DNA of 64,000 nt from Collinsella bouchesdurhonensis (GTDB lineage: Bacteria; Actinomycetota; Coriobacteriia; Coriobacteriales; Coriobacteriaceae), in contig NZ_LT699743.1 of the NCBI RefSeq assembly GCF_900155365.1, positions 62,001 to 126,000 of the forward strand, read 5' to 3'. The notes below the pieces were generated by a model that saw nothing but the letters and a program-made list of their open reading frames with translations, did no database searches and was not told where the DNA came from. Positions within the stretch are counted from its first letter, which is position 1; the number at the start of each line of letters is the position of its first letter. The position numbers were made by a program, and so were the translations under genes. Below are positions 21,176 through 23,996 of this stretch, one piece after another.

Positions 21176-21230
21176 GTCAGAATTATTTGGAGTCCAAACG
21201 CTGTCGCAGCAGCCGCCCATAATCGCCTGC

Positions 21231-21273
21231 AAGAAAACGGCGGTCGCGAAACAAACCATTCCGCAGACCGCCG
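21231..21273 (-). terminator. Terminator after the TPR/DUF4037/DUF4125 genes
   Basis: CGGCGGTC (21238-21245) pairs with GACCGCCG (21266-21273). On the minus strand TTTTCTT follows. Confidence 0.65.
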
Positions 21274-21289
21274 CATACATCGAGAAGCC

Positions 21290-21910
21290 TCACTTCCCCC
21301 TGCCGCTGTTGTGCTCAGCATCGGTGGCGTTGGCATAACCGTAGTGGCGCGCGATGTTATCCATGTTCGCAATGGCAAGGTTTACGCCGTTATGCCAGCA
21401 CGAAATTGCATAGCGCTCGTAAATCGCGATCGTGCGGGCAGAATAGCTCTTGAGCTCGCCGCGCAGGTAGCTTTCAAACGAAGTCGAATCGGGCTTGTCG
21501 TCCTCGGAAAGAAGCGGGCGCCCACCTTCGGCCATGCGCGGGAACAAAACGTTTGCCTGCGCCTGCCACACCAGGAAGAACTTGACGATATGTTCGATGC
21601 GCTCACACACCTCATACGGAAGAAGCGGGAGCTGAGAGGCGATCTGCTTAAACGCCGTGTCGTCGGTGTTTTCCATCATCCAGGCGTATTTCTCGGTCAT
21701 CAAAGAACGACCAGTTGCCGAAGCGGTCGAGACATCATCAAGATACGACTCGAGAAGCTCGTCCGAATAGGTCTGCAAAAGCGAGGTGCGCATGATCTTG
21801 AAGGTGTCGGGGCGCCGCTGACAAGACGCAACACCGCCTTCGTTATTCACATGCAGGAAGTCCTCCCATTCGATGCGTACGATTGTGTCGATAAGTTCTG
21901 CTCTGGACAT
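21290..21910 (-). CDS. DUF4125-family protein
   Basis: A 206-residue, mainly helical protein (MSRAELIDTIVRIEWEDFLHVNNEGG...). The opening IVRIEWEDFLHVNNEGGVASCQRRPDTFKIMR and ELLESYLDDVSTASATGRSLMTEKYAWMME are what I recognise as DUF4125. There is no signal peptide, membrane segment or obvious catalytic motif. ATG 21910 has AGGAGTG upstream. It is the last gene of a three-gene unit, 17 bp after the DUF4037 gene, and a terminator follows. The function is unknown. Confidence 0.72.
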   Translation of the reverse strand: MSRAELIDTIVRIEWEDFLHVNNEGGVASCQRRPDTFKIMRTSLLQTYSDELLESYLDDVSTASATGRSLMTEKYAWMMENTDDTAFKQIASQLPLLPYEVCERIEHIVKFFLVWQAQANVLFPRMAEGGRPLLSEDDKPDSTSFESYLRGELKSYSARTIAIYERYAISCWHNGVNLAIANMDNIARHYGYANATDAEHNSGRGK

Positions 21911-21927
21911 GATAGTCACTCCTGTCT

Positions 21928-22878
21928 CTAGTCGCACGGCATCGCGCACGGCGCCATTCCCGCCGCGGTGCCCAATGTCCTGATGGCGTTCACATGGTCA
22001 AGCAAGAAGACCGATGTATCATCCGTAAGTTCCTGACGCGCCAGCTCTGCCACGATCAGCGCGGCTGCATCGTCAAGCTCGTTTTGGAGGGCGCGCGCGT
22101 TGCAAGTTCCAAGCGCACCCGTAAACGACCCGGCAGCGCGCAGATGCGCCGCAACGGCACGGCCCAGCTCTCCGCAGCAGCGTTCACACGAGATAAGGGC
22201 CCATTTGTAGTACGGGCAAAAGCGATGCGACAGTTCGTGCACAAGCAGGCATGCGGCCTCGACGGCACGCGCATAGGCCAAGCAGCAGCCAACTTCGTCG
22301 CCACGAACCGCAGCGCGCACCAGGTTGTACTGGCCCGCTTGAGCAAAGTCCATGCATCGCTGCGCGATGCGCTGCAGTCGCACGGCATCGGGGTATCCCA
22401 AAAGCAAGCGCTCGCGTATACGCGAAAAATCGCCCGGCCCATCGTAAAAAACGTCGCCGTTCGTGGCTGCCGCGAGGGCGTGCTCGGGCGTACGTGTCCA
22501 CTCGGCAAGCGTGCACGGGCCCTCGGGGCATCCCGTAAAGTACGCGTAGTGAGTTGCCACGGTCCATGCACCGGCCCTCCCCTGAGGAACCGGAGCATGA
22601 AATCCCAAGATGGGATAGCCGCAATAGTTCGAAGGAAGCGCTCGCATGATTTGGTCGGCGGAGGCAGCGAGCGCCTGCTCTCCGTCGCGGACCCAAACGC
22701 ACAGGGAAACGCCCCAGTCGTGATCGCGAGAAACGTCGTCATCAAAGCCAAAACGATCCGATCCGTCGCCAACGCTGCCTACGGCAATGCGAGAAAACGC
22801 CTCGTCTCCCAGGCCGCGGCGCAGCTCGGGCAAGGCCACCTTGGTGGCATATTCACGCGTCAGTTCAAGACCTTGCAT
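21928..22878 (-). CDS. DUF4037 protein, nucleotidyltransferase-like
   Basis: The 316 residues open with a nucleotidyltransferase-like site: GSVGDGS at 34-40, FDDDVSRDHDWG at 45-56, resembling the G-S...D-x-D pattern of the Pol-beta superfamily. The rest is helical and Cys/Ala-rich. DUF4037 proteins are known only by family. A nucleotidyl transfer reaction (aminoglycoside-adenylyl-like or regulatory AMPylation) is plausible but unproven. ATG 22878 lies inside the end of the TPR gene (14-bp overlap), so the two are coupled and their products may act together. Confidence 0.75.
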   Translation of the reverse strand: MQGLELTREYATKVALPELRRGLGDEAFSRIAVGSVGDGSDRFGFDDDVSRDHDWGVSLCVWVRDGEQALAASADQIMRALPSNYCGYPILGFHAPVPQGRAGAWTVATHYAYFTGCPEGPCTLAEWTRTPEHALAAATNGDVFYDGPGDFSRIRERLLLGYPDAVRLQRIAQRCMDFAQAGQYNLVRAAVRGDEVGCCLAYARAVEAACLLVHELSHRFCPYYKWALISCERCCGELGRAVAAHLRAAGSFTGALGTCNARALQNELDDAAALIVAELARQELTDDTSVFLLDHVNAIRTLGTAAGMAPCAMPCD

Positions 22879-23716
22879 TCAGGTCCCCCCGCACGCGCTC
22901 GATGTTTTGACAGACTATCGTATAGGCGCGCGATTCGGTACCGAACAGCTCACCTGCAATTTCGCGCGACTCTTCAAAAAGCTCAAGCGCATGCTCGGGC
23001 TCCCCTTGATCTGCAAGGAATCCTGCCACGTTGTTAAGAGCGCTCGCGTAACTGGCGCTCACGCGGCCGTTAAGCTCGAGCGTCATAGCGCGTCCGCGCT
23101 CAAAAAGGTCTTTTGCACGCGCGATATCGCCCGCGTGCCACAGACAGACACCAAGGTTCATAAGCGTTGTTGCAATAGAATTGGGATGCTGGGTGCCGGC
23201 AGCCGAACCCTCGAGCAGCGCCAAAGCGCGCTCATGACATGCGCGCGCCTCATCATAGCGGCCCTGGTCTTGGTAGAGCAGGCCGATGTTGTTGTAGCAG
23301 CTGATGGTACGCCAGTCGTCCTCGGGCAAGCTTGCCTGATAGATCTTAAGGGCGTGCTTGAACGTCTCCTCGGCCTTATCGAAATCCCTGCAGAGACGGT
23401 AAAGACCAGCCAGGTTGTTGACCGTCGTACCATACTCGGAATTTGTTTCGCCCCACGCTTCGCGCAAGATCTCCCCAGCCTCGATAAAGTGCTCGCGGGC
23501 ATCGTCGTAGCGGCCAAGATAGCGCTCGACCGAAGCGGCATCGTTTAAAGCAATGGCCAGATGTACATCCCCCGGCGCACAGACAGAGCGCGCACACGCA
23601 AGCTCCTCGCATGCCACAGGATACGCAAGGGCGTATTCACCGCGCATCATATGGGCCTGGAGCTGCTCCGTGATCCGATTGAGCTCCGTATAGTCCGGCT
23701 CGTCTGCATATCCCAT
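22865..23716 (-). CDS. Tetratricopeptide-repeat protein, first gene of a three-gene unit
   Basis: The 283 residues hold about five TPR units of the kinesin-light-chain/NB-ARC type, each about 42 residues: YGTTVNNLAGLYRLCRDFDKAEETFKHALKIY, TISCYNNIGLLYQDQGRYDEARACHERALALL, IATTLMNLGVCLWHAGDIARAKDLFERGRAM, YASALNNVAGFLADQGEPEHALELFEESREI. It is soluble and probably a scaffold or peptide sensor. ATG 23716 is chosen; GAGGA lies 11 bp upstream, and the frame upstream has no TPR character. Overlap with the nucleotidyltransferase-like gene and close spacing to DUF4125 suggest one complex or pathway. Confidence 0.78.
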   Translation of the reverse strand: MGYADEPDYTELNRITEQLQAHMMRGEYALAYPVACEELACARSVCAPGDVHLAIALNDAASVERYLGRYDDAREHFIEAGEILREAWGETNSEYGTTVNNLAGLYRLCRDFDKAEETFKHALKIYQASLPEDDWRTISCYNNIGLLYQDQGRYDEARACHERALALLEGSAAGTQHPNSIATTLMNLGVCLWHAGDIARAKDLFERGRAMTLELNGRVSASYASALNNVAGFLADQGEPEHALELFEESREIAGELFGTESRAYTIVCQNIERVRGDLNARS

Positions 23717-23878: not shown

Positions 23879-23996
23879 CGAGGCCCCGCTACGCATCCCT
23901 CCACGCGCAGTTACGCAGAAAGGCCTTGGTTCAGCAAAGCTGAGCCAAGGCCTTTCGAGTATGTTTGAGCATGGAGGGATGCGTATCGGGGTCTCG
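23879..23996. repeat. Two-tier palindrome, 118 bp
   Basis: Outer arms 23879-23903 and 23972-23996 are inverse copies with 23 of 25 positions matching (core ACGCATCCCTCCA). An inner hairpin, 23918-23934 with 23940-23956, matches 16 of 17 (GAAAGGCCTTGGTTCAG) around a 5-nt loop. There is no T run on either strand. It sits between the start of the TPR gene and the end of the HAD gene, both minus strand, and fills most of that 299-bp gap. Confidence 0.85.

Follow-up and report, generated by a model that had tools for sequence, protein, structure and literature searches.

The genes for a TPR-repeat protein, a DUF4037 protein and a DUF4125 protein form one real, widely shared unit, and the DUF4037/DUF4125 genes are associated with glycyl radical enzymes (GREs). 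This association is a new point: among open-licence papers, we found none tying DUF4037/DUF4125 into a module common to several GREs. GREs are oxygen-sensitive and act on toluene, choline and aromatic acids. Their chemistry includes the conversion of gut choline to trimethylamine, the formation of p-cresol and hydrocarbon activation in sediments. The activase is a known helper of GREs, as is the BssE/BssF pair in some systems.

The window, meaning the whole 64-kb stretch of DNA analysed here, contains the unit as three consecutive minus-strand ORFs, identified from the ORF list and a profile search. The unit and its flanking elements are as follows.

22865..23716, minus strand: TPR-repeat protein, first gene of the unit, 283 aa (PF13424/PF13374, E 3e-50/4e-35)
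21928..22878, minus strand: DUF4037 protein, BssJ homologue, 316 aa (PF13228, E 1e-30, residues 127-226)
22711..22764, minus strand: GS-x11-DHD motif of DUF4037, residues 39-56 (G39 S40 ... D52 H53 D54 W G)
21290..21910, minus strand: DUF4125 protein, BssG homologue, 206 aa (PF13526, E 1e-64)
21230..21274, minus strand: terminator-like hairpin and U-run at the end of the unit (RNA fold)
23918..23956, no strand given: 18-bp palindromic hairpin in the interval between a HAD gene and the unit (terminator-like scan)

The TPR protein matches the TPR_12 domain with an E value of 3e-50. Its ORF overlaps that of DUF4037 by 14 bp (22865-22878), and DUF4125 follows after a gap of 17 bp (21911-21927), exactly as an earlier note on this DNA had described. 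That note had also placed a terminator at the end of the unit. RNA folding bears this out, with a GC-rich hairpin at ~21274-21237 followed by UUUUCUU (-30.2 kcal/mol, z -2.2). A simple terminator scan missed the hairpin because its stem is bulged. On the upstream side, the HAD gene is set apart by the long palindromic hairpin. With a U-run hairpin on its 3' side and a palindrome on its 5' side, the trio therefore looks like its own transcript.

Co-occurrence was surveyed in 80 loci homologous to the window unit, many of them on contigs that end early. At 58/80 loci DUF4125 and DUF4037 are no more than 8 kb apart, a TPR gene lies within 3 kb of DUF4037 at 58/80 also, and 43/80 have both close by. 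In five other genomes (L108, L111, L131, L132 and L133) the three are fused, in the same order, into a single TPR-DUF4037-DUF4125 polypeptide, and two-part fusions of trio members occur in L134, L143, L060 and L118. The trio recurs across several phyla. The view that the three genes belong together, already put forward from the sequence of the window, thus holds: they co-occur widely rather than rarely, and are sometimes one protein. The three-gene set is not obligatory. A TPR gene is rare in Desulfobacteria (3/20 loci), and in many loci from Proteobacteria and Desulfobacterota an atypical SDR joins in place of the TPR protein. DUF4125 genes without a nearby DUF4037 were found in L037, L142, L149 and L164. 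As side observations, L037 (6664-8754) and its counterpart L038 (6477-8567) have a TPR gene between two DUF4125 genes, downstream of 4-hydroxyphenylacetate decarboxylase (HPAD) and an MFS transporter, with DUF4037 absent nearby. In a genome of the same genus (L031, 11894-14488), a GRE is spread over two ORFs, possibly by a frameshift or an assembly error. An activase and a solitary DUF4125 gene lie next to it, with DUF4037 20 kb off (L032).

Unbiased clustering of the neighbouring genes ranks three families directly after TPR and DUF4125: the SDR, found at 22 loci, the GRE activase at 21 and the GRE itself at 20. We defined linkage as a GRE within 10 kb of DUF4037/DUF4125, the expectation being calculated from how densely GREs occur in the genomes concerned. 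A GRE is present in 10/40 loci, against 1.3 expected (P 1.5e-7). A sample of 391 Clostridia genomes, picked independently of similarity to the window, gave 5/14 DUF4125 loci with a GRE, against 0.38 expected (P 1.3e-5). The enrichment beside the module is thus ~8-13 fold over the density in the same genomes. Among 149 Coriobacteriia genomes, 12 of the 13 DUF4125 genes are within 10 kb of a GRE, the exception being the window copy; these 12 linkages do not represent 12 independent events, given the close relationship of L037 and L038. Of 20 Desulfobacteria loci, 9 contain a GRE, an activase or BssE/BssF. On a quick tree of DUF4037, GRE linkage is scattered, and the supported branches force at least 11 changes. 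The linked enzymes are of several types: HPAD, indoleacetate decarboxylase (G126), choline lyase (CutC) in microcompartment loci, BssA, MasD and an arylacetate decarboxylase. A universal link was considered and rejected, as most copies are unlinked: ~60% of the well-flanked loci (19/32, both flanks at least 9 kb) have no GRE within 10 kb, and 3/40 genomes, some of which are incomplete MAGs, have no detectable GRE genome-wide. With so many copies lacking a GRE, service to GREs cannot be the sole role; the module may have a broader function, of which controlling GREs is one part.

BssG and BssJ of toluene degraders have been published as proteins of unknown function. In Herminiimonas sp. CN (L083), the strain shown in PMC5874301, the gene order is GRE, BssE (AAA), BssF, DUF4125, a DUF4258 protein, DUF4037 and SDR. 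Therefore, DUF4125 corresponds to BssG, the DUF4258 protein to BssI, DUF4037 to BssJ and the SDR to BssK. The bssJ primers (PMC7285207) fall inside DUF4037, matching 18/20 and 15/19 bases. The bssG primer has no proper site on the DNA of the relatives, where it matches 13-14/20 bases in the wrong place, so the assignment of BssG to DUF4125 rests on gene order. BssK has been proposed to be a translational regulator (PMC7285207). The bss accessory genes had been described as confined to beta-proteobacterial clusters. The window unit contains the same two families, a BssJ-type DUF4037 and a BssG-type DUF4125, but has a TPR protein where the bss clusters have the DUF4258 protein. It has no SDR beside or between its genes and no adjoining GRE, whereas the bss set includes the atypical SDR and stands within a GRE gene cluster. 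The gene at the BssI position (L083 9408-10004, L107 9399-9989, L093 9399-10004) takes the place of the TPR gene; its product joins a DUF4258 domain to a zinc-ribbon-like tail (CxxC...CxxC) and looks like a toxin and an antitoxin fused together. In a limonene-degrading member of the Syntrophobacteraceae, LrcL (DUF4125) and LrcM (DUF4037) are expressed (PMC12583861). Like the window pair, they are adjacent, and they belong to a catabolic operon of a GRE-using organism. The passages describing them annotate them only as expressed DUF proteins and propose neither a module nor a wider GRE association. The statement of the earlier note that no function is published for either family is correct as regards an assigned activity, and incomplete as regards a domain grouping (PMC3710099), the disruption of bssJ (PMC5874301) and LrcL/LrcM (PMC12583861).

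When bssJ (DUF4037) is interrupted by an insertion, Azoarcus sp. CIB can still use toluene and m-xylene for growth, and the authors of that study propose a role in solvent stress. Growth was lost when bssF was disrupted, a mutation that may also have had polar effects on bssG and bssI (PMC5874301).

DUF4037 is predicted to be an enzyme. In an alignment of 82 homologues, G39, S40, D46, D47, S50, D52 and H53 are invariant and D54 is conserved at 98%. Both DxD residues, whose lack of conservation would have counted against the reading of the earlier note, are therefore kept, and GSVGDGS and DHDWG, singled out in the earlier note, are both real in the window protein. DUF4037 carries the GS-x(10-12)-DxD catalytic motif of KNT/ANT-type enzymes. 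Candidates for the third acidic residue or catalytic base of such enzymes are D46, D47, D146 and E/D41, which are highly conserved in the same alignment. The AlphaFold2 model (pLDDT 94) has an N-terminal part with a nucleotidyltransferase fold and a helical, HEPN-like C-terminal part. In the structure search, the best match is kanamycin nucleotidyltransferase 1kny (Z 12.2, 237 residues); the top six rows by Z are all nucleotidyltransferases covering both halves, and lincosamide nucleotidyltransferases are also among the best matches. The HEPN protein 2hsb matches the helical half with a Z of 9.9, in a comparison where helical halves often give middling values. This fold agrees with the published classification of DUF4037 with the non-catalytic C-terminal HEPN domain of aminoglycoside nucleotidyltransferases, where TPR fusions are also mentioned (PMC3710099). 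DUF4037 shares with KNT/ANT(4') the overall fold over 237 residues, the GS...DxD motif and the HEPN-like C-terminal helices. In contrast, identity is only ~10%, invariant D46, D47, H53, W127, N185, R188, P222, K225 and W226 are found in DUF4037 and not in KNT/ANT(4'), and DUF4037 is coupled to TPR and DUF4125. Overall, motif and model fold strengthen the predicted nucleotidyltransferase-like character that the earlier note had proposed. A PDB sequence search with single proteins and profiles returned no relatives of DUF4037 or DUF4125. Pfam/NCBIfam matches of DUF4037 to TehB (E 0.06-0.2) were dropped as weak, chance matches. Other Coriobacteriia (L039, L040, L041) have a distinct short DUF4037 family of ~265 aa with GGSRAG...SDYDLYVY, outside the module.

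The AlphaFold2 model of DUF4125 is all-helical (pLDDT 96). Foldseek gave no match below E 1, the best Z in the PDB is 2.5, and neither the PDB nor BFVD holds a usable fold match. Conserved polar residues are E14, C30, Q31, R41, K74, Y75, R131, Y148 and E152.

Motif, fold and fusions together make a nucleotidyl-transferring complex likely. We tentatively propose that the TPR adaptor, the DUF4037 nucleotidyltransferase and its DUF4125 partner may form an accessory module of GRE systems, one that nucleotidylylates proteins. Here we infer the catalytic activity, the formation of a complex, the protein target, the purpose of the module and, in the window genome, HPAD as client. DUF4037 would attach a nucleotide to a protein, which could be DUF4125 or a client that the TPR protein holds. 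At GRE-linked loci, nucleotidylylation could provide post-translational control or quality control of the GRE or of its radical-SAM activase. The linked GREs have no substrate in common, and the partners either bind proteins (TPR) or are helical; for these reasons we favour a protein over a small molecule as the target. Several observations weigh against this proposal: growth of the bssJ mutant on toluene and m-xylene, the GRE-less copies, the window copy among them, the DUF4125 genes without a nearby DUF4037, the rarity of the TPR gene in Desulfobacteria, and nearest folds that are small-molecule antibiotic modifiers. It is doubtful, though conceivable, that DUF4037-DUF4125 is a hitherto overlooked system that controls or repairs GREs of many reaction types through nucleotidylylation, working with TPR in Firmicutes and Actinobacteria and with the SDR in Proteobacteria and Desulfobacterota. 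If so, a shared nucleotidyltransferase module would be a new control layer on many GREs. HPAD, choline lyase, and toluene, alkane and limonene activation would be united under one accessory module, and the unexplained bssG/bssJ and two DUF families would gain a testable role. The GRE association supplies concrete strains and operons for testing.

The antibiotic-modifying relatives raise an alternative, on the whole unlikely, in which DUF4037 would adenylylate a toxic or hydrophobic metabolite, often alongside an exporter. The top folds, ANT(4')/kanamycin and lincosamide nucleotidyltransferases, do act on small molecules, and the chemistry of many linked GREs involves toxic or hydrophobic compounds. 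Co-directional MATE exporters adjoin the module in L077, L111 and L136, and lie a short gap away from it in L081; HPAD clusters contain an MFS gene. An adjacent exporter is nevertheless missing at most loci, choline, toluene, alkanes and hydroxyphenylacetate provide no common substrate or product, and TPR and DUF4125 domains fused to the enzyme fit a protein target better.

It is also rather improbable that the unit serves stress responses or regulation in general and has no particular connection with GREs, its linkage arising because anaerobic, metabolically rich clusters gather stress functions. The majority of well-flanked copies that stand alone would be expected on these grounds, and so would a bssJ mutant without a growth phenotype, for which solvent stress was suggested (PMC5874301). 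The enrichment calculated against same-genome density argues the other way, as does the fact that activase and GRE outrank all non-core neighbours but the SDR.

MntA adenylylates HepT in the HEPN/MNT toxin-antitoxin system (PMC7641770), and the trio likewise pairs a nucleotidyltransferase with a helical partner; the toxin-antitoxin-like gene that toluene clusters have at the BssI position points in the same direction. A HEPN/MNT-like toxin-antitoxin or phage-defence unit is nonetheless very unlikely: no HEPN RX4-6H motif shows among the columns at least 85% conserved (there, the only His is H53 in DUF4037 and DUF4125 has none), the enzyme is larger than in HepT/MntA, and the neighbours are metabolic and chromosomal. 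The defence-like role that the earlier note had considered plausible is not supported: PADLOC matched the trio with a generic TPR model only, with nothing for DUF4037 or DUF4125, and the additional genes that recur around the unit belong to metabolism, GREs and activases above all.

If the module does nucleotidylylate a protein of GRE systems, its likeliest client in the window genome would be HPAD. A GRE was sought within the 64-kb window and none was found; the nearest in the genome is HPAD (C15:17079-19769), ~64 kb from the unit. The closest relatives of the window unit are those of Collinsella vaginalis (L047/L145), with identities of 52% for DUF4037, 65% for DUF4125 and 49% for TPR. There, the cluster reads activase / HPAD - MFS - TPR - DUF4037 - DUF4125, and HPAD is the likeliest client because this orthologous unit stands in an HPAD cluster. 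The HPAD locus of the window genome (L127) has activase, TPR and MFS genes, lacks DUF4037/DUF4125, and shares its Rrf2 and mnmA neighbours with the C. vaginalis cluster. The simplest reading is that the window unit became separated from the HPAD cluster, or was acquired apart from it, and would act in trans.

Within the same genome, the HPAD (L127 5774-10632) and indoleacetate decarboxylase (L128 4047-9924) clusters each have their own small TPR gene beside the activase, without DUF4037/DUF4125. A second DUF4037-DUF4125 pair (L028 6945-8571, L129 806-3340; G000:C15:175-187 kb) is located in a CutC locus. Its companions there are genes for an aldehyde dehydrogenase, a MerR-like regulator and an iron alcohol dehydrogenase, together with EutP-like and microcompartment-shell-like genes. 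The same gene order is repeated in L030, L033 and L035.
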